Shown here piece after piece: positions 310 through 48,390 of a DNA stretch of 64,000 bases (its first letter is position 1; the number at the start of each line of letters is the position of its first letter). The stretch comes from Nephrocerus scutellatus (Eukaryota > Arthropoda > Insecta > Diptera > Pipunculidae). The notes under the pieces were generated by a model, which saw only the letters and a program-made list of their open reading frames with translations, was not told the DNA's origin and did not search any database. The stretch lies in the NCBI GenBank assembly GCA_947095585.1, contig OX352765.1, positions 78,475,976-78,539,975 of the forward strand, read 5' to 3'. The position numbers and the translations under genes are program-made.

Positions 310-2530
310 AGACCACAAACCTGTTATTCTGGCACTAACAAATACGCAGGTTAATGCTGATTCCAACGTTTCGGATTTTAGTTGGCCTGGTTACAACTTG
401 GTGCCAGTATTTTTTCCCCTCCCGCGGTCTCGCCATCTATGTACGTAGTGATGTTGCTTAACAAACTCAAGCACAACACATTGTTCCAATGCGGAATGTA
501 ATTACATTTGGCTCAAAGTCAAAGTGCGTAAGCATGATATCAACTGCTGCTTCATATACAGAAGCCCTAGCTCAGACAGGGTCTCAACTTGTACTGAGTT
601 AGATGTACTGTCTGACTCTATATCTAGAATTTTGACGCTTGATCCATTTTCTGAATTGCGGGTGATTTCAATATACACAATTCTAGTTGGCTTCGCCATT
701 CAGTGTTAACAACACCGCAAGTAAAGGATGTTGAATTATTTGCTGATTTCAACCAGCTCACTCAGTTTGTGAATGAGCCCACTCGGATTCCAGACATAAC
801 ACAAATACCCTTGACTTGTTTCTTTCCTCACATCTTAACAAATACACCGTCAGTGTATCATCACCTCTAGGCTCTTCAGACCATTATGTAATATCAACCA
901 ATAAAAGAAAAGTATGGTTACTCGTGTACTATTTAAGGTGCAAAGAGGCTACTAAGAACCGGGAAGTATGCTTTCGGTTATATAAAACCGAACCAAATTT
1001 AGACGATACAGAAATGATTGCAATACCTTCCTTAGACGAGCCAAATTCGACTACGACCAGAAACTGAGAAAAAAAAATACTTCAATATCCAAAAGGAAGT
1101 AAACATTTTGGTCATTCGGGAAAAAAATTAAAAATACCGCCTCGTCTTCAATTCCAACGCTCATTCAGAATGCCATTCCAACTTTCTATAAATGTTCTAT
1201 AGACAAGGCCAATCTGCTAGCTTCAGATTTCGCAGCTTCACGCTACCAGATAGCGCGTTGTCGCCGCCGGTACTTGCAAGAGTCGAATACTCTATGGGGC
1301 AGATTTACTTTCGTACTCGTCAAGTGGCTAGAGTATTAAATGATCTCAGCATTCATAAATCTGCTGTGCGTGATGGCATTCCCGCTATAGTTTCGCAGAT
1401 GTGTTCTTCAACGTTGGCATTGCCACTGCGCCGGCTTTTCCATTTCTCTTATTATTCTGGAGTCTTCCCAAGGAATTGGAAAAGAGGCTTTATCCAGCCT
1501 GTTCCTTAAAAAGACGAACCGTCATATCTTTCCTCGTACCGACTATTTGCGCTAACATCCATACTTTCCAAGGTTATGGAAACTTTGATCAATCGTTAGC
1601 TTATGCAATACCTTGTATCACATGTAATCCTTAGTGACCAGCAGTACGCTTTTCGTAGGCAACTTTCTACAGGCGACCTGATGGCTTATCTCATTGAAAA
1701 GTGGAATCAGTCTATTCACGAATTTGTTGAAAGTAAAGTTGTTGCACTCGATATTTCCAAAGCATTTGACAGAGTCTGGCATCAATCTCTTTTGTCGAAA
1801 ATGAACACCTATGGACTTGATAAGACGCTGCTTGATTGGACTAGTAACTACCTTTCTGACCATTCAATCCAGGTTGCATTGGACGGTTTCAAATCCAATG
1901 TTCACCGCATAAACGCCGGGGTTCCTCAAGGCTCTGTTTTTTCTCCTACACTCTTTCTCATTTTCATTATTGATTCATTCTTTCGCTGACGACAGCACTC
2001 TTTGCTTTTCATATGAGTTTGCGCTCTCTCCACGCGCCTCTTCATCACAAGTGGAACTTGAACAACAGCGTATGTTAAATTTTGACCTTGACAGCATAAC
2101 AAGATGGGGACTACACAATAGAGTTGAATTTAACATTTCTCAAATCCAATGCCGTCTTCTGTCGACCTACGCTTAGACGTAATTTAAACCCAAAACCTTT
2201 ATCCATGAATGGATCCTGCATCAAGGAAACTGAAACGCTCGCAATACTCGGTATGTGCGTCAACAACAGGCTTCGTTGGAACGACCACATATTTGCCATC
2301 GCCAAAAATGCTGCGTGATGTTTTTAGGTTTCCTAAAACGGTGCAAGATGTACTTCACTGGCTACTATTTATGAGGCGTATGTTCGCCCTAAACTTAAAT
2401 ACAACTGCATTGTCTGGGCAGGTGCTCCACAGGCCAGACATCTCATCTGTTCCTCTCCTTAATTTCCACGCTGTGCTAAGCATTGTAAGGATGCAAATCC
2501 CTTTATCGTGTGTACATTATAAAAAGTACC
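310..2530 (+). pseudogene. T1 LINE, degenerate near-full endonuclease-RT copy
   Basis: A decayed jockey-superfamily non-LTR retrotransposon. The apurinic-type endonuclease lies at about 310-880: a DSNVSDFSWPGYNL stretch, GLAIYVRSDVA in a shifted frame, FIYRSPSSDRVSTCTELD, and the typical domain end NTLDLFLSSH..SSDHYVIS. The RT lies at about 1190-2450: fragments of the pre-RT linker, STGDLMAYL, VVALDISKAFDRVWH, NAGVPQGS and HSFADDSTL (catalytic FADD at 1982-1993). The C-terminal thumb includes LAILGMCVNNRLRWNDHIF. Many frameshifts and stops, and a small deletion just before FADD removes the usual NDLLSVTSNP residues. In life the enzyme would nick target DNA and reverse-transcribe the element RNA in place; this copy cannot be functional. 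Clade assignment beyond jockey superfamily is uncertain. Confidence 0.85.
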
Positions 2531-3060
2531 GTCCAGGTCCGAATTCAACGTACTTAACATACGTAGATGTTTGAGTTCCACATGAGAAGTCGAAAAACAT
2601 TCCTCAAACTTGTCTGAGAAGCTGAGAGTGCTGTTGTCAGCGAAAGAGTGAATTGGTTTAGAAGTAATGGACAAAAGATCCGTAATAAATCTGAGAAAGA
2701 GTATCGGGGACAAAACAGAGCCCTGGGGAACGCCAGCATTTATATGATGTAGGTACTTAAAACTTGAAACCGTCCAATAGAACTTGAATTGAGCGGTCCA
2801 ATGAAGCAGTTTTTCATCGACTCCATAAGCACGCATTTTGGTCAAACTCTGTCAAAAGCTTGGAAATATTGAGTTTTGCTTTCACCAAATTGTTGTAAAT
2901 ATCGGTTCCACTGTTCGTTGAGATATACCATAAAATCACCAGTAGAACGTTGTCCACGAAATTTGTGATTGCATCAGCGGTATCATCCACGTTGCTATCG
3001 CAAAATAATACCAACCAGTTAATACGCTCAAGTAAGTTGTTAAGGCCATCCCTTTTGGCT
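2531..3060 (-). pseudogene. T1 LINE, inverted RT fragment
   Basis: Minus-strand fragment of the same T1 RT: HHINAGVPQGSVLSPILFL, then SITSKPIHSFADNSTLSFS (catalytic second Asp changed to Asn) and LRMLSTLNSDLD. Upstream on the minus strand come frameshifted remnants of the STGDLMAYL and SKAFDRVWHQ region. It abuts the 3' side of the plus-strand copy, so the two share antiparallel similarity across the RT palm. Broken by frameshifts and 5' truncated. Confidence 0.8.
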
Positions 3061-5357
3061 TTCTCGTATTGCCATACTTTTGTTTTATACTTTAAAAGTT
3101 TAAAAATTAATGTTAGCCTTGATCTTAACGATTAAAGTCCCTTATTAGAACAATGTAGGAAATAAAGTTATAAAACATTAACGTGTGAGATGTAATTTTC
3201 GAAAAATCCCTCACCTGTTCCAACAGAAGCCACTCATGTCACACCTGGCATTGGATAATTAATTACAGAACTCATTTTGTCGTGCAGATGTAGTTGGTAT
3301 AGAAGAGGCAAAAAGAAAACAAGTTTGATTTTCAAGCAGATTGCAGATGATCCAAAATACTCTTAATTGTTTTTTAATTTCAAAAATTGTTTATTTGAAT
3401 GGGTCAGTTGGATCAGGTGGATCAGGTGGGTCAAATTATTCAATTCGGCACGCGCATAAGCTTGCCAGTCTCTAGCGTAATATCTATGTTTGCTATCTAT
3501 CATCCATTAGCTATTCCTGTTTATGTTTGTGTTCAGAAAAAAAATAATAAAAAACTTTAATTTGAAATTAGGGAGCTTTTTTTTTTTTTATTATGATTGA
3601 TCTTGTCTGTGTCTCGATGAGAGGTGAACATCATCTCAATCAGAAACGCTCGAGTTAACTAAATGCATTTCTCTGGTTCAACAACAAAAACGTATCAGTA
3701 CGTAAGTGCGGTGTTAAAAGTTATGTTTGGGGAACTTAATTTTATCTGATCTCCAGAGGGAACAAAAGCAAGATACTCATACGTGAGTGTGTAGTGTAGT
3801 TTTATGTATTTTATGGACTTTTTAATTGACCTTTATGATCGAATATGGTTGGTACTCTGCTGTACAGTTTTATGCCTCCTTCTGACCTAATTCAGAAGTT
3901 TGGTAGAATTTCGTTTTTAGTGGCAATTATATTTTTCACAGGCTTGTTTTTCTTTTTAAGTTGAATATTAAACAATTTAAACGAAATTTAAATGAATTTT
4001 TATGTGTGAGGGTGAGGTGACTTTTGGGGCAATAGATAGGTTGACAGGTGATAGATTAAGTGGCAGAAAATGTTGTATTTTTGATTAACAATAAATTTTC
4101 GTAGTGGGTTGTGAGGTGGAGAATGTTATCAGAGAAATGGAAGTGGTTGGTTTATTACTAAACTAAAAAGTTAGTGTTACTATCAGTGATTCAAGGAAAC
4201 AAAACAGTCTTTCAATTCGGAGAAAATTGAATGGAATATCATTGTAATGGCGTCGTCACTTGAAACAATAAAATGCTGATGATATTAAAAAATCTGTAAA
4301 AATTGGATACTAAAACTAAGTCAGACAGACAACGCCCTCGCACTATCAACTCGAATATCTTGCGAGTAATAAAAAAAATTGTTTACAACTTTTTGTTGTT
4401 TTGTCGCCGCATCGATCTATAACGAATGAATAATTAAATTCAATGTTTAACAATTTTACTTCATCCCGATACACAGATACACAGAGAAATTCTTTTTATT
4501 ATTGCCGGTAAGACGAGATTGTCGTTGCAGAATGCAATTATTGCTGCTTTTCTGGAGTTTTGAATTTTATTTGATTTTTATTTCGGTATTTCGTTGTCAA
4601 AGTATATCACTAACATAAATTACCTTCCATACCTCTATTCATTCGTTCAGCTTTTCATTGTCTTTGCCGTGTAGAATTTCGATGTTGTCAACACTGTGCT
4701 GTGTGTGTTTATGGTTTCCCATTGAATTCCTTTAATGATCGTTTCGATTACACTCAGACGGAATACTTAAATATGAAAACAGATAGACACAGATGTTTTT
4801 AGGCAATAAAAAGTAAAATTAAATTTAAATGACAAACAGGCGAACACGACGAATTAAACATTTCCACGAATATGTGTATTGCCTTGGCTGATACAAGCTG
4901 ATGCATTGATTTCGAATCCAAAGATTCATAGCATCGTTTCGTTGCATGATTCACATTTATTTTGCTTTGAACAGATTGAACAAATTTTTAATATCTAAAT
5001 TCTTAGGACAATTATATTCTTACCACCAAGAAAATACATCTAGTATGATGGTTTGAATCCGTTCACGGATCTATTGTTTGGATAGTCTGTCGCTGTCCTC
5101 CATGAACCAGAGGATATCGTGAAAGTATCCAGCTAATGCATATTAGAGCCGCGTACATTTAGTTTTGCCAACCGTCCGCTACCAAACACACTTTACTCCC
5201 TCTTAAAACACAACACTACCCAGTGCTTTAGAAAACCTTCGAGAAAAACGACGTAGAAGAACCAAAATATGTTAAAAACAAATCGGAATTTTCAAAATTA
5301 TATTAATGAAATGAATAAAAAATTATATTCTCTAATAGAAGATACGATTCTAGGCCT
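3061..5357. other. Non-coding, AT-rich stretch
   Basis: No open frame longer than about 60 codons and no similarity I recognise. Contains A/T homopolymers (for example near 3540-3590) and a short GGATCAGGTG repetition near 3410-3430. Nothing supports a gene. Confidence 0.5.
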
Positions 5358-5560
5358 ATTCCACTAGAACAATTCCACACGACACAATTCCACTGGACAC
5401 AATTCCACTTGGCACAATTTAACTTTTTGATAATCAAACGCATTCAGGGTGGTAAATCGCGCGCGCGAATCACTGCACCCTAAATTGTGCCAAGTGGAAT
5501 TGTGTACAGTGGAATTGTGTCCAGTGGAATTGTGTCTAGTGGAATTGTGTCTAGTGGAAT
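5358..5560. repeat. Foldback repeat with 15-bp tandem units in its arms
   Basis: Left arm 5358-5421 and right arm 5481-5560 are inverted complements around a ~59-base spacer containing a GCGCGCGCG run. The inner 25 bases of each arm match perfectly (right arm begins TAAATTGTGCCAAGTGG). Each arm is built of a 15-bp unit, AGTGGAATTGTGTCY, about three times in the left arm and four in the right, so the arms differ by one unit. The transcript would fold into a long hairpin. It directly precedes a TR-A element. Confidence 0.85.
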
Positions 5561-5993: not shown

Positions 5994-7480
5994 CGCGGGG
6001 GAGCATAGGGCTTCTACAAAGGCCTAAACGTTAAACTCATTTATCGCCTGGGGTTTCGAGAAACGCCACTCTGTCACCTGGTATCTTGCTTCCTCTTCTA
6101 TTGTCCTTTTCCATGTCTTGCTGGGACGGCCAACTCGGCGGCTTCCTTGTGGATTCCAGTCGAGCGCTAGTTTCGTTATATCGTCCGCTGGCTTTCTCAA
6201 AGTGTGTCCAATCCAGCTCCATTTTTGTCGTCTGATGGTGATCGCGATTGCTTCCTGCTCTCCACAAGTCTTGATTGGTGATAATGTCCGGCCATCTTAT
6301 TCTCAGTATCTGCCTTAAGCTCTTGTTGATGAAGACTTGGAGGCGCGTCGCAATTGACTCTGTGACTTTCCATGTTTCGCAGCCATACAAGAGTTAGATC
6401 TGAAGATCATTAGCCTTAGATTCCGGGAGATTTGCGAGGAGTTCCAGATATTATTTAGCATACTATAGGAGTGTCGCGCCTTGTTTACACGAGAGCACTC
6501 ATCCGAGTCAGCACCGCCATTTTTTAACATCCAGCTGCCCAAATAACAAAACTTATCGACTTCCTCTATCTGATGTCCGTCAATTGAGAGATCACATATT
6601 CCACTAGCGTTGACGCGAAGTAGCTTTGTTTTTGAGACGTTAATTTTTAATCCCACTTTGTTAGAGTGAAATTCTAGTGAGTTTAATTTTCGCTCCATGT
6701 CATCTAGCGATTGTGATAGGAGACAGATATCATCGGCATATTCCCCGTCTTCTAGGCGGTAAAACATGGCAAACCCGATGGAGTACGTGTTACTATTTTC
6801 ATCACCCAGTCGATGACAATTGTGAAAAGCACAGGTGAGAGGGTGCAACCTTGCTTGACTCCTGAGTAGATGTTGAAAGTGAGCCAAGATGACCGTTATG
6901 AATGACGCGGCATGTTGAGTCGCGGCATGTTGATGATGTTGATGAGTTTTTCCGGGAAAATCTGCCACATCATGTTTCGGCCGACGCTATCAAAAGCGCG
7001 TTTGCAATCTACAAAAACCATATACAGAGGAGAACGATACTCTACTGACTGTTCAATGATTATACCCAGGGTGTTAATTTGATCAGTACAAGAACGGTTT
7101 GGGCGAAATCCTTCCTGTTCATTTCTCAAAAATGTCGTCGTCGCGTAGTTAACTCGACGTCAGCTTGAAGGAGTTCTGCGTAGATGTTGTCATTGCCTGC
7201 TGCTTTACCTGATTGCAGTGAACGAATTGTTGTCCTTATCTCATCCAACGAAGAAGTAGCGACGCTGATGTTAAGTAGCCTATTAGGGTGCATATGTGGG
7301 TTGATTGACGTGCCTAACGAAGTACAATTCAAAGCATTCTTAAAATGTTCTGTCCAGCCGGTTTAATTGTTGTTCCTCCATAAGGATCAAGGAGCCGTCT
7401 ATTTCCTTAACAGGTTAGTGTATGTGGTGTTTCTTGTTGGCGAGATAAGGAGCGAGTTGGTATACTGTGCTGTGTTGTAT
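5994..7480 (-). pseudogene. RTE-2 LINE, RT fragment nested in TR-A
   Basis: Minus-strand RT of an RTE-like lineage. From N- to C-terminus: SLDEIRTTIRSLQSGKAAGNDNIYAELL, then EQEGFRPNRSCTDQINTLGI, then YMVFVDCKRAFDSV (motif A). Next come EYADDICLLSQ (YADD at 6729-6740), LKINVSKTKLLRVN, DKFCYLGSWM, YGCETWKVTESI and a WTRK-like tail region. Several frameshifts separate these blocks and no endonuclease is seen, as expected for a 5'-truncated insertion. It separates two halves of a TR-A element, so it probably inserted after TR-A, with some 45 bp of monomer missing at the junction. Confidence 0.85.
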
Positions 7481-20268: not shown

Positions 20269-21376
20269 AAGGGTCCGCCAACTAGTGCTTATTTCGTGAA
20301 TGGTAACACTTAGCTCATGTCTGATTTGACAGATAATTAGTTGTATCCTTCCGCTGAACGAATATGGTTGTGTATACGCTTGAACAACGCTGGGAAATAT
20401 TGCGACATTACTTTGAGAATCATGGTAATGTTGCAGAATGTGTGCGAAAATTGCGTACGGATTTTGGAAGAAGAGAAGCACCGTCAGCTCCGTATGTTCG
20501 TTATCTTGTGAAAAAAGTGAAAGAAACTGGCATCCTCATCGATAAACCAAAGCGTGAAAAGCCAAAAACAGTGCGTACACCCGAGAATATTGATGCTGTG
20601 GCAGAAAGTGTGGGTGAAGCGCCATCAACATCAATTCACCGTCGTTCTCAACAATTGAACATTTCGGAGACATCATTGAGACGAATTTTGCATAAAGACC
20701 TTGGTCGCATTTGGGGCACAGAAAACCCGCACGCATACATTGAAAAGCCGGTACACCCAAAACGAGTCACTGTTTGGTGCGGATTTTTGTCCAGAGGCAT
20801 AATTGGGCCATATTTCTTCGATAATGAGCAAGGAGTGGCCGTTACAGTCAATGGCGATCGTTATCGGGCCATGTTAAACGAATTTTTGTTCACAAAAATT
20901 GAAGAGGAGGATATTGGCAACATTTGGTTTCAACAGGACGGCGCTAATACGTGCCACACAGCCGAAGCTACACTCGATGTTTTGCGCCCTGTTTTTGAAG
21001 ATCGCATTATCAGCCGCAGAGCTGATGTCGTTTGGCCACCTCGGAGCTGCGATTTGACACCGTTGGACTATTATTTGTGGGGTGCCCCAAAAGATAAGTG
21101 TTACGCCGACAAGCCAGAGACAATTGACGCTTTAAAGGACAATATTCGTGAAGCCATTGGTGAAATACAGCTGCAAACAATCGATAATGTGCTTAAAAAT
21201 TGGACCGATCGTGTAGGCTACTGCATGGCCAGCCGATGCAGCCATTTTAATGAAATTATTTTCCATTGTTAACCGGAAGGATTGTACTTTCAAATAAAAA
21301 AAGAAATTTGAGAAAATATTCAGTAGTTTTTTTTTATAGCATTTTCAAAAAAAAAAAAGTTATTTGGCGGACCCTT
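20269..21376 (+). mobile_element. DD41D (rosa-like) mariner element with internal deletion
   Basis: A 1108-bp Tc1/mariner-type element. The termini are perfect 13-bp inverted repeats, AAGGGTCCGCCAA at 20,269 and its complement ending at 21,376, flanked by TA on both sides (20,267-20,268 and 21,377-21,378), the expected target duplication. It lies in the RT frame of LINE K; joining the flanks at one TA keeps the LINE frame open through a C-terminal segment. It is the shorter relative of the element at 21,827. Confidence 0.95.
20364..21272 (+). CDS. Transposase of the deleted rosa-like element (302 aa, catalytically incomplete)
   Basis: One uninterrupted frame with an ATG at 20,364. Residues ~1-60 form an N-terminal helix-turn-helix (YTLEQRWEILRHYFENHG) and ~85-115 a second one (SIHRRSQQLNISETSLRRIL). 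Compared with the 361-residue relative next door it lacks 60 residues after KDLG, which removes the first catalytic Asp (SDEAHF) in frame. The second (FQQDGA, residue 192) and third (TPLDYYLW, residue 235) acidic positions remain. One extra Asn follows GA, so their spacing is 42 rather than 41. 361-60+1 equals 302 exactly. The product could still bind DNA but should not cut it. A polyadenylation signal AATAAA lies at about 21,292. Confidence 0.9.
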   Translation: MVVYTLEQRWEILRHYFENHGNVAECVRKLRTDFGRREAPSAPYVRYLVKKVKETGILIDKPKREKPKTVRTPENIDAVAESVGEAPSTSIHRRSQQLNISETSLRRILHKDLGRIWGTENPHAYIEKPVHPKRVTVWCGFLSRGIIGPYFFDNEQGVAVTVNGDRYRAMLNEFLFTKIEEEDIGNIWFQQDGANTCHTAEATLDVLRPVFEDRIISRRADVVWPPRSCDLTPLDYYLWGAPKDKCYADKPETIDALKDNIREAIGEIQLQTIDNVLKNWTDRVGYCMASRCSHFNEIIFHC

Positions 21377-21826: not shown

Positions 21827-23130
21827 AAGGGTGTTTATTTAGGAGGTTTGTTTTTCCGATAGATGTCGTTTTATTTTATGACAGTTGTTTTGACAGCTCA
21901 AAGTGGCATTTCTACTCAGTATTGTTTGGCAAATCATTATGAATAGGTTAACTCCAGAACAACGTTTTCAAATCGTGGAAATTTATTTTCAAAATCAGTG
22001 TTCAATTAAAAATGTTTATAGAGCACTTCGTGAATTTTATGGTGCACATAATCGTCCGTCAGAGACCACCATAAAGAACGTAATTACCAAATTTCGGTCT
22101 ACATTCACTCTTTTGGATGCCAAGCCACCGACAAGAATGAGAAGAGTTCGTACAGAAGAAAATATTGCTGTCGTTGAGGCCAGTGTCGAAGAAAACGACA
22201 ATTTATCGATTCGTCGTCGTGCTCAGCAAATTGGACTTTGTCCATCGACTTTATGGAAAATTTTACGTAAAGATTTGGGTTTGGTGCCATACAAAATTCA
22301 ATTGGTGCAAGAATTAAAGCCACACGACCATCGTTTGCGCCGTGAATTCAGTGATTGGTCGTTAAATCAATTGAACGAAGATCCATTTTTTTACCGTAAA
22401 ATTCTCTTCAGTGATGAGGCGCATTTTTTGTTAAATGGATACGTCAACAAACAAAATTGTCGCATTTGGAGCAAAGATAATCCACACGCCGTTCAAGAAT
22501 TACCAATGCATCCTGATAAATGTACTGTTTGGTGCGGTCTATGGGCTGGTGGGATCATCGGTCCATATTTCTTTAAAAATGAGGAAGGACGACGCGTTAC
22601 CGTGAATGGAAATCGATACAGAACCATGTTAAATGAGTTTTTGTTGTCAAATCTTGAAGATATGGATATGGATGAAATGTGGTTTCAACAAGATGGTGCC
22701 ACTTGCCATACAGCACGTGAAACAATCGACTTATTGAAAGAAACTTTCAACGACAACATTATTTCGAGAAATGGTCCGGTGAATTGGCCTCCGCGTTCGT
22801 GCGATTTGACGCCACTCGATTACTTTTTGTGGGGATACGTGAAGTCATTGGTTTATGTGGATAAACCTCAATCGATTGACGCTTTGGAAACCAATATTCA
22901 ACGTGTCATTGCTGACATACGCCCTCAAATGCTTGAAAAAGTGCTGGAAAATTGGACCTCCAGAATGACATTTGTGAAAAATAGTCGTGGTAGCCATATG
23001 CCAGAAATTGTGTTTAAATGTTAAATGCCAAAAAAGTATCTACCAAATAAAAAAAAATTTTGGTCATTTCATAATTTTATATGTGTTTTATTCAAAAAAA
23101 AAATCGGCAACCTCTTAAAAAAACACCCGT
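21827..23130 (+). mobile_element. Complete DD41D (rosa-like) mariner element
   Basis: A 1304-bp element with imperfect inverted ends: AAGGGTGTTTATTTAGGAGG on the left and, read from the right, ACGGGTGTTTTTTTAAGAGG. TA flanks both ends (21,825-21,826 and 23,131-23,132). It carries one intact transposase frame. Size, TA target and ORF all fit the family. It lies 450 bp downstream of its deleted relative, inside the same LINE K copy. Confidence 0.95.
21939..23024 (+). CDS. DD41D mariner-family transposase (361 aa), apparently intact
   Basis: Cut-and-paste DNA transposase of the Tc1/mariner superfamily, acting in the nucleus on its own terminal repeats. I chose the ATG at 21,939 (MNRLTPEQRFQIVEIYFQ), which aligns with the start of the neighbouring copy; an in-frame ATG at 21,903 would add 12 residues. 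Residues ~5-60 form the first helix-turn-helix and ~85-120 the second (SIRRRAQQIGLCPSTLWKIL). The catalytic triad is complete: D159 (LFSDEAHF), D252 (FQQDGATCHTA) and D294 (DLTPLDYFLW), with 41 residues between the last two. That spacing is diagnostic of the DD41D 'rosa' group first known from fruit flies. No stops or shifts. AATAAA lies about 20 bp after the stop. Confidence 0.93.
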   Translation: MNRLTPEQRFQIVEIYFQNQCSIKNVYRALREFYGAHNRPSETTIKNVITKFRSTFTLLDAKPPTRMRRVRTEENIAVVEASVEENDNLSIRRRAQQIGLCPSTLWKILRKDLGLVPYKIQLVQELKPHDHRLRREFSDWSLNQLNEDPFFYRKILFSDEAHFLLNGYVNKQNCRIWSKDNPHAVQELPMHPDKCTVWCGLWAGGIIGPYFFKNEEGRRVTVNGNRYRTMLNEFLLSNLEDMDMDEMWFQQDGATCHTARETIDLLKETFNDNIISRNGPVNWPPRSCDLTPLDYFLWGYVKSLVYVDKPQSIDALETNIQRVIADIRPQMLEKVLENWTSRMTFVKNSRGSHMPEIVFKC

Positions 23131-26590: not shown

Positions 26591-26760
26591 TGTGTGCATA
26601 CTTTGTATAAAACCGGGCTGATTTTTTAAAAAAAATATATGGGAGCACCTCGGCACTTGGGCCCAATCACTTCGAGATTTTTATAGAAAGCGTTGTCATT
26701 GCAGATAGACAGGTTTGCAAAGTTTGAATAAACTTAATTGGACCTTCTAGGAATTAAGGA
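26591..26760 (+). repeat. TR-A fragment
   Basis: One and a half diverged monomers: TAAAACCGGGCTGATTTTTT, a TATGGGAGCACCTCGG block, CGAGATTTTTATAGAAAGCG and GTTGTCATTGCAGATA. No right end. It directly abuts the maT element, which may have inserted into it. Confidence 0.75.
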
Positions 26761-27640
26761 ATTAAATGTTTTCCTGCATTTATTGCAAATAAATATTATG
26801 TAAGTCGCCAACAACAGTACATACATGAACGTGTCTGTCATATGAACTGACTTGGACATTTTGAATATAAAACGTTCATTGTCAATTATTATATTTGGCT
26901 CTTCAGCCATGGTCCGCTTCTATACTTCGAAAAAAACCACTTCAGAAATGTAAACAAATAATTTGTGGTCAACAATGACAAAATTTCATTATTTCCACCC
27001 TGCTACAACTCTGCTCCAGTGATAATTTATTTATTTTTTAACAAAAGCAATGTTTACTGGAAAAACACACACACGCACACATCCAAGTGTTAAACAAATA
27101 TCAAAAAAAAAAGTGAATAGGAGATTTATAGTTTGACACTTTGTTATGGCATTTAATCGCCGATACATGTTTTCCATGTCTCTCTGTCATCCACAGTGCG
27201 ATGAGTAAATGCCCAGCGAGGAGCGTCGTCGGATGGCAACAAATCCACTACGAGTATTATTTGTCCTTTGTGTTGTAATTCGGACAGGTGTTTCGGACAA
27301 TGTACAACATGATTATTGAAGCAATAATTTGTGAACTTGACATATGTGGAGGACACAAGCTGTGCTCCTCATGTGACGCATGCATTCTCGTGTGTGTGTG
27401 TGTGTGGAGTCGGTATGATGTCTGTTGGTTGGTTGGTTGTCTGGTGATAGCCACTGGACAACCGCATGCAAACAACTAATAAAATCGAATTAAATATATT
27501 ACGCGAAGAGTTGTTTATTATTGTGTGTGTGAGTGTGGTGTGGATACTCATGCATACACAAGTAAATAAATACAAATTGATGAGTCGTTTTGTGCATGTG
27601 CTTGTGTGAATGTAGTGGGGGTACTCAGTCATAAAAAGAA
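26761..27640. other. Non-coding stretch with (GT)n
   Basis: No gene recognised. Includes CACACACACGCACAC near 27,067 and (GT)n at about 27,391-27,408. Confidence 0.5.
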
Positions 27641-28947
27641 CAACCCATAAAAATCCAAAATTTTCATGTAAATTGCACATATGTGTGCAAAGTTAGAACC
27701 GAGTTAATTTGGTAAAAACTTAATATAAGAGCCCCTTGACTTCAAAATTTTTACAAAAACTGTTGTCGCCGGAGATACACATGTGTAAAAAATTTGTATG
27801 GCACCTTGGGGCCCGATCACTTCCAACTTTCCATAGTAAGTGTTGTCATTGGAGAAATTTATGTGGGCACCCCGCGAGCCTTCACTCCAAAAATTTTACA
27901 GAAAGTTAAGTCCATCGGACATACACATTAGCTTAAAATAAAAAGAAAATCGTTCTAATTTTTGAATTTTTGTTATGGAAACAACTCGCGCCTCAGGGCC
28001 CGTTCCATCGGAAATACACATCTGCTTAAAATTTGATGAAATCGGACTAATTTTTAATAATTTTCTTATGGGCATACCTCAGGCCTTAGGGCCCAAAAAA
28101 TTTTTTTCTATCGGAGATGTGTTTAAAATTTGAAAAAAATCGGGCTAACTTTTTAAAAATTTATATGGGCACCCTCTGGGCCACAGGGCCCGTTCACTCC
28201 AGAAATTTTACATAAAGTTTTGTCCATCGGAGGTACCCATGTGTTTGAAATTTGAAGAAAATCGGGCTAACTTTTTAAAAATTTATATGGGCACCCCTGG
28301 GCCACAGGGCCCGTTCACTCCAGAAAAAATTTACAAATATTTTTGTCCATCGGAGATACACATGTATATAAAATTTGAAGACAATCGGGTTAATTTTTGT
28401 TAAAAACTTGTATGGGGTCTAATGACCCCAGGGCCCAGGGTCTCGAAAATTTTTACAAAAAGTGTTTTCCATCGGAAATATACATGTATATAAAATTTGA
28501 AGAAAATCGCGTGAATTTTTTTAAAAAATGTGTAAGGGGCCGTGGGTCTCCAAACTTTTTGCAAAAATTTTTGTTTATAGAAAGTGTTACATACACACGT
28601 TTATAAAATTTGAAGAAAATTGAGTTAATTTTTTTAAAAAATTTGTATTAGGCCCCACGACCCTCAGGTCCGGGTCTCTAAAATTTTTACAAAAAGTGTT
28701 TTCCATCGGAGATACACATGTATATAAAATTTGAAGAAAATTGGGTAAATTTTGTAAAATTTTTGTATGGGCGGCCTCCAACCTCCAAATTTTAATAGAA
28801 AGTGTTGTCATCGGAGATATGCATGTGTGCAATGAATGTTTCAATGAAATCGGACTTTGGGAAACGCGTTAAAAATAGATCGCTAGATTTCATGACAAAC
28901 ACACAAACAAACGGACAAACGAAGTTAATATAGAGAATTTAAAAAAA
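27641..28947 (+). repeat. TR-A element, complete copy (~1.3 kb)
   Basis: Left end ACAACCCATAAAAATCC followed by TTTTCATGTAAATTGCAC, then about ten diverged ~120-bp monomers. The right-end block is ATCGGACTTTGGGAAACGCG, an AGATCGCTAGATTTCATGAC-like segment, ACAAACAAACGGAC, and GAAGTTAATATAGAGAATTT plus A's. Monomers repeat ATCGGAGATACACATGTG, AATTTGAAGAAAATCGGG, TATGGGCACCC, GGGCCC and a TTTTTACAAAAAGT segment. Apparent protein frames through it are a by-product of a unit length close to a multiple of three. Confidence 0.9.
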
Positions 28948-29644: not shown

Positions 29645-30830
29645 TTTTTTAAAATTCTCCAGATTAACTTCACTTGCCCGTGGCACGGATGTCGGTCGTC
29701 GGTTGTCGGTCGTCGGTCGTCGTGGAACTTTGCGATCAATTTTTAACCCACTTCCCAAGGTCCGATTTTATTGAAATTTTGCACACATGCGTATTTCCGG
29801 AGACAACACATTCTATTAAAATTTGAGGGCCCCGGGTTCGGGGGGCTCCCATACAAATATTTTACAAAATTTTACTCGGTTTTTTTCAAATTTTATACAC
29901 ATGTGTATCTCTGATAGACAACAATTTTTGTAAAAAATTTGGAGACCCCGTGCCCCGGGTTCGTGGGACCCCATACAATTTTTTAAAAAAAATAACCCGA
30001 ATTTCTTCAAATTTTATATACGCATGTATCTTCGATAGACAACACTTTTTGTAAAAATTCTGGATACCCCGGGGCCCGGGTTCGTGGGGCCCCATAACAT
30101 TTCTTTAAAAAATTAACCCGATTTTCTTCAAACTTTATATACGCGTGTATCTCCGATAGGCAACACTTTTTGTAAAAATTTTGGTGACCCCGGGCCCCGG
30201 ATTCATGGGGCCCCAAAATTTAAAAAAAAAATTAACCCGATTTTCTTCAAATTTTATATACGTATGTATCTCCGATGAAAAACACTTTTTGTAAAATTTT
30301 TGGAGACCCCGGGCCCCAGGGTCATTGGGCCCCAAATTTTTTTTAAAAAAAATTAACGCGATTTTTGTTAAATTTTATATACGTGTGTATCTCCGATGGA
30401 CAATATTTTTTGCAAAAGTTTTGGTGGCCGGGGTCGTGGTCCCCATAAAAATTTTTCAAAAAATTAACCCGATTTTCTTCAAATTTTATACATCCTCTGT
30501 ATCACCGATGGACAAAATTTTTTGTAAAGTTTTTGGATTGAGCGGGCCCTGAGGCCCAAGGGGTGCTCATATAAATTTTTTAAAAATTAGCTCGATTTTC
30601 TTCAAATTTTTAACAAATGTGTATCACTGATGGACATAACTTTTTGTAAATTTGTTGGAGTGATAGGGCCATGAGACCCGTGTGGTGTCCATGTAAAATT
30701 TTTAAAAATCAATCAATTTGAAATTCCGGATTTGATTTTCTTCAAATTTTAACACATCGGTACCCATCTCCTATTAGAGAATTTACATGAAAAATTTTAA
30801 TTTTTATGGTTTGTTTTTTTCTTAATAAGG
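29645..30830 (-). repeat. TR-A element, complete inverted copy
   Basis: In opposite orientation to the copy at 27.6 kb. Its right end (plus-strand CTCCAGATTAACTTCACTTG) is at 29,658, followed by GTCGGTCGTCG repeats and about eight monomers. Monomer spacing measured at the AACACTTTTTGTAAAAA block is 119-121 bp (30,041, 30,162, 30,281). The left end (TTAGAGAATTTACATG, then TTTTTATGGTTTG) is at about 30,775-30,815. GC blocks such as GGGGCCCGGGTTCGTGGGGC are nearly palindromic. With the 27.6-28.9 kb copy it forms a large inverted pair separated by about 0.7 kb. Confidence 0.9.
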
Positions 30831-37585: not shown

Positions 37586-38310
37586 AAAAATAAATAAATA
37601 AATAAATAAACAAATAGGTAGATATAAAAAAAATAACTGGACATAAAACCAAATAAATAAATTAAATAAATTAAATAAATTAAATATATTAAATAAATTA
37701 AATAAACCAAATAAATTAAATAATTAAGTAAATCGATTAAATAAATTTAATAGGTAGATATAAAAAAATAACTGGACAAAAAACCAAATAAATAATCAAT
37801 AAATATATTAAATAAATTAAATAAATTAAATTAAATAAATAAATTAAATTAATTAAATAAATTAAATAAATTATATTAATTAAATAAATTAAATTAATTA
37901 AATTAATCAAATTAACTAAATTAATTAAATTAATAAAATTAAATTAAAAAACAAAAATTAAATAAATTAAATAAATTAAATTAATTAAATTAATTAAATA
38001 AATTAAAAAAATTAAATAAATTAAATAAAAAAAATAAATTAAATAATATAAAATAAATAAAATAAATAAAATAAATAAAATAAATAAAATAAATAAAATA
38101 AATAAAATAAATAAAATAAATAAAATAAATAAAATAAATAAAATAAATAAAATAAATAAAATAAATAAAATAAATAAAATAAATAAAATAAATAAAATAA
38201 ATAAAATAAATAAAATAAATAAAATAAATAAAATAAATAAAATAAATAAAATAAATAAAATAAATAAAATAAATAAAATAAAAAAAAATAAAATAAATAA
38301 ATTAAATCTC
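37586..38310. repeat. AT-only low-complexity block with a 9-bp satellite
   Basis: About 720 bp made almost entirely of A and T. The first part is degenerate TTAAATAAA-type sequence with near-duplicated segments (for example GATATAAAAAAAATAACTGGACA at ~37,621 and ~37,757). From about 38,048 to 38,285 it becomes a regular repeat of the 9-mer TAAATAAAA, some 26 copies. The apparent frame of repeated Phe-Ile-Leu on the minus strand is a consequence of the 9-bp period. Confidence 0.95.
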
Positions 38311-41109: not shown

Positions 41110-41342
41110 CTTCTACCGGTGAGGGTGAGAGGGCTACTCGAGCCTTAGGGCCCGATCACTCCAACATTTTTACAAAAAGTTTTGTCCATCGAAGATACAC
41201 ATGTGTTTAAACTTTATATGGGCACCCCTCGGGCCTCAGGCCAATTCACTCAAAAAATGTTCAAAAGTTTTGCTTAGTCAATCGGATATGATTAAAATTT
41301 AATGTAAATCGGGCTAATTTTTATAAAATTATATGGGCACGG
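41110..41342 (+). repeat. TR-A fragment
   Basis: Two monomers: GGGCCCGATCACTCCAACAT, TTTTTACAAAAAGTTTTGTC, a GATACACATGTG block, then TATGGGCACCCCTCGGGCCT and AATCGGGCTAATTTTT. It stops abruptly at TATGGGCAC against a LINE relic. Neither element end is present. Confidence 0.8.
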
Positions 41343-42439: not shown

Positions 42440-42850
42440 AGTTAATGATCAAGTGTATAAGGCTAGAATTTGATCGCAGGAATGTAGCAATAAGACTGGT
42501 GTTCCTCAAGGCAGCATTCTTGTACCAATGCTATTTTTTTTACTTTTTACTTCAGATCTTCCTGCCACAAAATGGTTACAAAATACTACTAAATAAGTAA
42601 TCATAATCAAGTATAAAGTTTAAGTATAAGGCTAGAACTTGATCACAGGAATGTACCAATAAGACTGGTGTTCCTCAAGGCAGCATTCTTGTACCAATGC
42701 TTTTTTTTTCTTTTTACTTCAGATCTTCCCGCCACAAAATGGTTACAAAATACTACTAAATAAGTAATCATAGTCAAGTATAAAGTTTAAGTATAAGGCT
42801 AGAACTTGATCACAGGAATGTAGCAATAAGACTGGTGTTCCTCAAGGCAG
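42440..42850 (+). repeat. Tandem repeat built from an RT motif (units 1-3)
   Basis: Two and a half tandem units with a period of 167-169 bp, measured at GTTCCTCAAGGCAG (42,501, 42,670, 42,837). Each full unit encodes TGVPQGSILVPML and, frame permitting, LLFTSDLPAT, the finger-palm motif of a jockey-superfamily RT, followed by GGTTACAAAATACTACTAAA and AAGTATAAGGCTAGAACTTG. Units 1 and 2 are over 90% identical by eye, so amplification is fairly recent. The array is split by a retro-insert and resumes at 43,487. Confidence 0.85.
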
Positions 42851-46589: not shown

Positions 46590-46921
46590 ACATACCAAGA
46601 ATTGTGAGATTTTACAGTTTCTTCGAGGTAAATGCCATTAATGGATAAGTGCATGGAATCTAGGATTCGCTTCGACGACAGGAGACATCATTTGGTTTTG
46701 GAATCGTTAAATTCTACTCGATTGTTTTCTCCCCATTTTATTATGCTGTCTAGGTCAGAATTTAATGTGCTTAACATACGTAGTTGTTTGAGCTCCACGT
46801 GAGAAGTGGAGGGACGTTCCTCAAACATATATGAGACTCTGAGAGTGCTGTCATCAGCGAAAGAGTGAATTGGATTAGAAGTCACAGATAAGAGATCATT
46901 AATAATAAAACAGAAACCCAT
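46590..46921 (-). pseudogene. T1 LINE, 3' half of an interrupted copy
   Basis: Minus strand: INDLLSVTSNPIHSFADDST (FADD intact), EERPSTSHVELKQLRMLSTL, SDLDSIIKWGENNRVEFNDS, then SKRILDSMHLSINGI. Its upstream part is at 47,556-48,390, on the other side of a TR-A element. The 3' end is truncated at about 46,590. Confidence 0.85.
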
Positions 46922-47555
46922 AAAAATTTTAATTTTTCATGTAAATTCTCTAATAGGAGATGGGTATGTGCTAAAATTTGAAGGAAATCGGGTTAATTTT
47001 TTTAAAAAAACCCGGCGCCCGGGGTCTACAAAATTTTTACAAAAAGTGTTGTCTATCGGAGATACACGCTTTATAAAATTTGAAGAAAATCGGGTTAATT
47101 TTTTTAAAAAAAATTTATGGGGTCCCACGAACCCGGCGCCCGGGGTCTCCAATATTTTTACAAAAAGTGTTGTCTATCGGAGATACACGCGTTTATAAAA
47201 TTTGAAGAAAATCGGGTTAATTTTTTTAAAAAGAATTTATGGGGTCCCACGAACCCGGCGCCCGGGGTCTCCAATATTTTTTACAAAAAGTGTTGTCCAT
47301 TAGACATACACATGTGTATAAAATTTGAAGAAAATCGAGTTATATTTTGTAAAATATTTGTATGGGAGCACCCCAACCCCGTGGCCCGTTGGGCCTCAAA
47401 TTAATAGAAAGTGTTGTCTTCCGAAATACAGATGTGTGCAAAATTTCAATAAAATCGGGCCTTGGGAAGTAGGTTAAAAATTGATCGCAAGATTCCACGA
47501 CAGACGACCGACGACCGACCCACGGGCAAGTGAAGTTAATATAGAGAATTTAAAA
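46922..47555 (+). repeat. TR-A element inserted in a T1 RT frame
   Basis: The copy with the best-defined borders. Left end AAACCCATAAAAATTTT, then CATGTAAATTCTCTAATAGG, then about four monomers that are over 90% identical to each other (GAAGAAAATCGGGTTAATTT, GGGGTCCCACGAACCCGG and CGCCCGGGGTCTCC repeated). The right end is TAGGTTAAAAATTGATCGCA, GACGACCGACGACCGACC, CACGGGCAAGTGAAG and TTAATATAGAGAATTTAAA. The left TAAATTCTCTA and right TAGAGAATTTA are perfect 11-bp inverted complements. The T1 RT reads LFLIF on one side and INDLLSVTSNP on the other, contiguous in intact copies. Confidence 0.92.
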
Positions 47556-48390
47556 ATGAGAAAGAGTGTCGGAGACAAAACAGAGCCCTGAGGAACGCCC
47601 AGCATTTAAATGATGTACTTTAGACTTGAAACCGTCCAATACAACTTGAATTGAACGGCTCCTAATCCAGTGAAGCAGTTTTTTATCGCACGCATTTTGG
47701 TGCCAAACTCTGTCAAATGCCTTGGAAATATCAAGTGTAACAGTTTTGCTTTTACGAAATTGATGCAAAGACTGGTTCCACTTATCAGTGAGATATGCCA
47801 TCAAATCACCAGTAGAACGTTGCCCACAAAATCCGTACTGCCGGTCAATGAGGATTTCCTTGGTCTTCAAGATATTTCTTAAGCTGCTAATTGATCAGCG
47901 TTTCCATGACCTTGAAAAGAATGGATGTAAGTGCTATTGGTCGGTACGAAGAAGGAGTAGACGGTTCGCCTTTTTTGGGTATGGGCTGGACAAAGGCTGT
48001 TTTTCAATTTCCCAGGAAGAGCCCAGAAGAATAGTAAAGATGGAAAAGCTTACGCAATGCTAATGGCTTGGAAGAACATCTCTTCAGAACTAATGGGGAC
48101 CTGACATACTCTGAGATCGTTTAAAACTCTGGCAACTGCACGAGTACGAACATTGAGTTTTCAATACCCGGAGGTACAGGCGGTAGCAATGAACAATCTC
48201 CAATACAGCAAACAAGATTGGCTTTGTCTTTAGAGCTGATAACTGGAATGCCATTATAAATGAGCATTTGAATCGACGACGAGGCGGTATTTTTGATTCT
48301 TTTCACGAATGACTAATGTCGTAGGCGAATTTGACTCGTAGAAGATGGCTAATTTGGAATTTATTTCGTTTTCCTCAGTAGGGTTTAGTT
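47556..48390 (-). pseudogene. T1 LINE, 5' half of the interrupted copy
   Basis: Minus strand: IKNTASSSIQMLIYNGIPVI (pre-RT), a frame-shifted QPIPKKGEPSTPSSYRPIAL, LTSILFKVMETLI, QYGFCGQRSTGDLMAYLTDK, TVTLDISKAFDRVWHQNA and RSIQVVLDGFKSKVHHLNAG. It ends at LSPTLFLIF next to TR-A. No endonuclease; 5' truncated near 48,390. Confidence 0.85.

Follow-up and report, generated by a model that had tools for sequence, protein, structure and literature searches.

TR-A, a minisatellite-carrying repeat family of Nephrocerus scutellatus that very probably consists of non-autonomous Helentrons

Results and discussion

The window analysed here, a 64-kb stretch of contig C5 of the 613-Mb, 9-contig assembly of Nephrocerus scutellatus, contains a complete copy (copy C6) of the dispersed repeat TR-A at positions 46906-47556. 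The copy lies on the minus strand, which is the element's own strand, with its 5' end at 47556 and its 3' end near 46906. Along this strand it runs from a T-run through the subterminal repeat TAAATTCTCTA, a GTCG-type microsatellite, 122-bp units, the second subterminal repeat TAGAGAATTTA and a AAAAATTTTAATTTTT-type palindrome to a GGGTT motif and a closing T-run. Specifically, the 5' module (47461-47556, minus strand) holds the inverted repeat TAAATTCTCTA at 47542-47552, 4 nt from the 5' terminus, and the microsatellite (ACGACAGACGACCGACGACCGACC on the plus strand) at 47499-47522. TRF places 2.8 copies of a 122-bp unit at 47009-47354, in line with the internal minisatellite of about 120 bp described in an initial annotation of this DNA, and degenerate units extend beyond 47354 to about 47460. 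The 3' part comprises the 11-bp inverted repeat TAGAGAATTTA at 46942-46952, which sits inside TCTCTATTAGAGA in common copies, the AT palindrome AAAAATTTTAATTTTT at 46922-46937, which in its common form is 8 nt plus the T-run away from the 3' terminus, and, at 46906-46919, the terminal A/T run with the GGGTT motif on its T-run side, a border uncertain by a few bases; complete copies usually have (A)nCAACCC at this left end. The view of TR-A as an element with defined ends holds, with the left border nearer 46906, in the A/T run, than the 46922 first proposed. As DNA, the 3' module folds mildly better than shuffled sequences (z -1.5 and -1.7), which lends the palindrome weak support.

All seven occurrences of the 11-mer TAAATTCTCTA in the window fall at TR-A ends; in 100 dinucleotide shuffles it averaged 0.05 occurrences and never exceeded 1. 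The inverted 11-mers reported earlier do form an exact pair in the flagged copy C6, but only there, the other copies lacking one or both in exact form. TR-A sequence was likewise recovered by BLAST with the parts of copy C6 at all eight window loci named in the initial annotation, but these loci do not all share the same parts. Both ends are recognisable at four of the eight, namely 27639-28945, 30815-29647, ~46906-47556 and ~54222-53835, which in the left-to-right sense of that annotation lie on the plus, minus, plus and minus strands, respectively. On the element strand, copy C3 (27639-28945, minus) is diverged and complete, and copy C4 (29647-30815, plus, opposite to copy C6) is complete and includes the longest TR-A array of the window (6.9 units of period 121 at 29827-30650, TRF) as well as a GTCGGTC array at 29691-29722 (TRF). 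Copy C7 (53835-54222, plus) has nearly lost its array and has an eroded 5' terminus, and copy C8 (63550-64000, plus) shows a 5' end and array before running off the window end. Copy C1 (5639-7832, minus) is interrupted by other sequence that includes an RT fragment; its right end is present, and its 3' (left) end is represented only by a possible, decayed candidate near 5324. Opposed 15-bp tandem arrays, ATTCCACTTGACACA and AATTGTGTCCAGTGG, adjoin this copy at 5358-5560 (TRF) and, facing each other, possibly form a fold-back structure. The two remaining loci, 26622-26732 and 41150-41321 (both minus, BLAST), are monomer fragments with no ends.

A DNA search of the genome with the flagged copy, in which 40 of 7,912 first-look candidates were scored, gave 77 matches in eight loci; with 40 further, partly overlapping stretches cut out, 48 genome loci were studied in addition to the window. 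The copies so obtained are the best matches of the flagged copy, and the sample leans to its subfamily. Together, these loci and the window yielded 50 left ends, 67 right ends and 43 complete copies, which reduce to 32 non-redundant entries and, once a 13-bp artefact at L021 is dropped, to 31. Complete copies measure 619-1598 bp (median 922, n=31) and contain about 2 to 10 recognisable units. Mean pairwise identity among the 31 is 0.91 over the outer left 75 nt and 0.94 over the outer right 95 nt, the latter being the last 95 nt of the 5' module. In 29 of the 31 copies the right end is GAATTT followed by 5-8 A, left ends mostly read (A)nCAACCCATAA, with an A-run of 6-9 in 23, and the ends of copy C6 agree with both. 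Flanking sequence is common in register from the junction in a single pair of copies, the remaining flank matches being scattered repeat pieces, and head-to-tail copies with one A-run in common occur at L016, L021 and L030. Scans of phage, viral contig and prokaryote genomes gave no match. A TR-A cluster at contig C4:63722000-63737000, a 3.5-kb tandem duplication of at least four near-identical units with one TR-A each, was set aside as ordinary tandem duplication; similarity there stops 229 bp past the last element.

The flagged copy splits a reverse transcriptase gene, as the initial annotation had stated: by reading, GSVLSPTLFL lies in the right flank and INDLL in the left flank on the minus strand. 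A paralogous, LINE-like empty site without the insert is present in the window at 2531-2962 (plus strand; 79% over 458 columns), where ATTAATAA[insert]TGAGAAAG corresponds to the uninterrupted GTAATAAATCTGAGAAAG, the junction being ambiguous by no more than a few A/T bases. The flanks are thus contiguous at this empty site, which carries no target duplication. In a second, poorer paralog (2164-1527, 69%), the right side agrees and the left side is gapped. The copy at L032 is inserted in the A-run of another TR-A sequence and provides the only other clear empty site, and a rougher one is provided by the copy at L011, which lies in another TR-A array. Flank words of at least 5 nt are repeated in 4 of the 31 copies, above the mean of 0.8 on shuffling, though all four are A/T-only and differ in length. 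There is accordingly no target duplication common to the 31 copies, and the initial annotation had likewise reported none that was clear. A T precedes the left A-run in 22 of 31 copies and follows the right A-run in 18 of 31. TR-A inserts at T-rich sites without duplicating its target.

These data bear on what kind of sequence TR-A is. Were it a mere dispersed satellite, its ends would be chance stops of the array, and the monomer fragments without ends in the window fit this picture; against it stand the same two ends in 31 copies that differ in unit number and in flanks, and the contiguous empty site, which refute it for complete copies and leave it next to no probability. Ends that do not vary continuously across the 31 copies likewise uphold the earlier claim that TR-A moves as a unit. 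The closing run of 5-8 A could instead be taken for the poly(A) tail of a retroposon reverse transcribed by a LINE, a reading made extremely unlikely by a left end that is constant, not truncated, and in most copies comes after an A-run too, by the lack of long target duplications of variable length, and by the head-to-tail copies that have one A-run in common. Finally, a short, gene-less element with inverted repeats near both ends could be a MITE of the cut-and-paste type, mobilised by a DDE transposase, with subterminal repeats and a microsatellite carried along; the window even contains DUF4817 frames at 20364-21272 and 21903-23024 (plus strand), which we take to be mariner-type transposases. 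TR-A, however, has neither terminal inverted repeats nor a duplication of fixed length, its two ends are built differently (a microsatellite module versus a palindrome module), and its target is a T-run, which makes a MITE very unlikely. On the alignment of ends, the empty sites and the scan for target duplications, all three readings were rejected.

Canonical Helitrons (Helitron1) begin with TC and end with CTRR. On its own strand TR-A has T-runs at its ends and does not conform to this pattern, in agreement with the earlier remark that a CTRR 3' end is missing. The features of HINEs are present instead: 11-bp subterminal inverted repeats, the 5' one within the 2-4 nt range, together with a 5'-module microsatellite and central tandem repeats. 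Mite HINEs carry their 5' repeat at 2-4 nt from the terminus; towards the 3' terminus lie a palindrome (8-35 nt away) and a second repeat (38-60 nt away), and their T-rich targets remain unchanged (PMC4067079, Thomas 2014). TR-A resembles DINE-1/HINE-Mo and Helentrons as described there in a 5' repeat 4 nt inside the end, T-runs at both ends, a 3' palindrome 8 nt plus the T-run from the end, and a T-rich target left unchanged, whereas its 3' repeat lies slightly nearer the end than in mite HINEs (34-37 nt versus 38-60 nt, the distance being 28 nt and a T-run that measures 6-9 in 23 of 31 copies). Partners of >95% identity are reported there for some families (PMC4067079), and TR-A differs from these DINE-1/HINE families in that no >95% partner was found in its own genome.

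Cg_HINE of Crassostrea gigas combines repeats of 11-12 bp with GTCY/GTCK microsatellites in the left flank, satellite-like arrays in the centre, a 3' palindrome and a T-rich target without duplication, its autonomous partner not being identified (PMC7492417, Vojvoda Zeljko 2020). Compared by description, TR-A matches it in its subterminal repeats, a microsatellite of this type in the corresponding 5' flank, a central array, a 3' subterminal repeat followed by a palindrome, and a T-rich target without duplication. Unlike what is described there, TR-A shows by eye no complementary inverted repeat beside its 5' subterminal repeat, and its 3' subterminal repeat comes close to a palindrome in its own right (TCTCTATTAGAGA), a feature of the mite HINEs too. 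DINE-TR1 (Dias 2015), described in PMC9957191, is a Helentron derivative with central tandem repeats from Drosophila and Bactrocera tryoni; by description, both it and TR-A are of Helentron type with such repeats, with units of ~150 bp versus ~122 bp in TR-A.

A candidate source of the enzyme was sought in the same genome. Helitron_like_N gave 151 genome matches (150 of 622 candidates scored), and of 20 such loci extracted, 15 or more carry, by reading, a motif such as EWQKRGLPHAH, which is presumably of Helitron1 type. These 20 loci with 1.5-kb flanks contain no convincing TR-A 5' module, and a TR-A 3' end in three of them (L062, L067, L068) is read as a neighbouring TR-A copy. Locus L069 harbours a Helentron-type Rep/PIF1 gene (H1; PF14214 and PF05970, with DUF6570 in the preceding frame) that has at least 81 homologues, those with named organisms mostly from arthropods; together with the transposons of the window, these fit a probable arthropod source. 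With 86 of 381 candidates scored, the genome yields 97 pieces that match the gene. A TR-A copy lies directly past the H1 frame in L069, and a TR-A-like 3' end about 1 kb past it in rc(L071). Upstream of H1 (L069, L070, L071) only weak matches in opposite orientation were seen, and H1 was set aside as a partner. On contig C2, clustered Helentron-type Rep fragments with stops occupy 38.50-38.58 Mb, several of them ~6.3 kb apart; the cluster, sampled at L074, yielded two left-end matches too weak (E 0.055) to pass for a convincing TR-A end, along with what reads as a gag-like frame between Rep fragments.

A second Helentron-type gene, H2, is a 1172-aa Rep frame at contig C6:22.42 Mb, running from 1653 to 5168 in rc(C6:22419000-22428000), with DUF6570 and Helitron_like_N; it is 33% alike to the L069 gene over the Rep part, and no PIF1 helicase was found in the 822 aa scanned. 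On the same strand, 778 bp upstream, a TR-A-type 5' module starts at 875, in which TTTTTAAATTCTCTA is identical and ~130 bp are 65-71% alike to 12 distinct TR-A copies; the alignments of these 12 begin at 869-876 and those of four more at 846-864. At a locus on contig C1, the module remains joined to the ~160 bp of H2 leader that follow it (98%), the rest of the leader and the gene start are nearby (91-95%), and the match extends over the 100 nt preceding the module. Besides the query locus and the contig C1 copy, 33 of the 50 matches listed cross the module start and run at 73-89% into an upstream repeat, X. Because matches cross the module start and the contig C1 copy extends 100 nt upstream, 875 may not be the outer border of H2. 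Repeat X is a stretch of ~225 bp with a TR-A 3' end on one side and a TTTTTAAATTCTCTA box on the other, an order seen at two loci (rc(G000:C6:22419000-22428000) 650-1003, G000 being the fly's own genome, and L034:1112-1349). Downstream of the module, the 9 kb around H2 contain only weak matches to the TR-A 3' end (E 0.02 or worse), and an RT-like frame lies at 6553, beyond the H2 frame (by reading).

The initial annotation had suggested looking for an autonomous Rep/helicase element with the same ends. A related 5' module precedes H2, but the loci analysed include no Helentron that carries both ends of TR-A, and H2 is a relative and not a proven partner. Because the related 5' module and the Helentron-type Rep frame of H2 share a strand, TR-A can be oriented. 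The polarity so supported reverses the original one: the GTCG-type microsatellite marks the 5' end (the former "right"), and the AT palindrome marks the 3' end (the former "left").

Taken together, anatomy, empty sites, the lack of a common target duplication and the related 5' module before a Rep frame support the HINE/DINE-1 reading already put forward from the flagged copy, and TR-A is very probably a non-autonomous Helentron family, comparable to DINE-1 and Cg_HINE, with a ~122-bp minisatellite at its centre. The other option offered at that time, a new class of satellite-carrying transposon, is not needed, as the known HINE anatomy fits; by comparison with published descriptions, TR-A appears to be a new family within a known kind of element. 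Its ends (the 5' T-run and subterminal repeat, and the 3' subterminal repeat with the palindrome) would be recognised by a Helentron Rep/helicase supplied from another place in the genome, which would strip off or copy a single strand and insert it within a T-run, leaving the target unduplicated. Both this rolling-circle movement and the choice of the Helentron that would supply the enzyme are inferred. The array probably rides passively, its length changing by slippage or unequal exchange. N. scutellatus would then be a further genome in which a Helentron-type element disperses a satellite-like array, and such elements have been proposed as seeds of satellite DNA (PMC9957191, PMC12628747).

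Two copies also share DNA beyond the element. One on contig C4 (L018/L029) and one on contig C3 (L026/L030) have TR-A and 1,994 bp past its 5' end in common at 99.4% (L029:66-2940; L030 rc 1-2805), and their opposite flanks diverge at the 3' A-run, a T-run on the element strand. The far border of the block in L030 abuts another TR-A 3' end, and the block may be a duplication with coincident borders. If the 2-kb upstream extension moved as one unit, it would be a case of 5'-side capture. That Helentrons of N. scutellatus pick up DNA upstream of their 5' end, opposite to classical 3' read-through, is a tentative and somewhat doubtful suggestion; an earlier instance may be seen in repeat X, which precedes the 5' module of H2.

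Elsewhere in the window, TRF lists a 9-bp TAAATAAAT array of 72.6 copies at 37654-38307 and a 167-bp tandem repeat of 2.4 copies (96% matches) at 42455-42850, which by reading resembles RT coding sequence.
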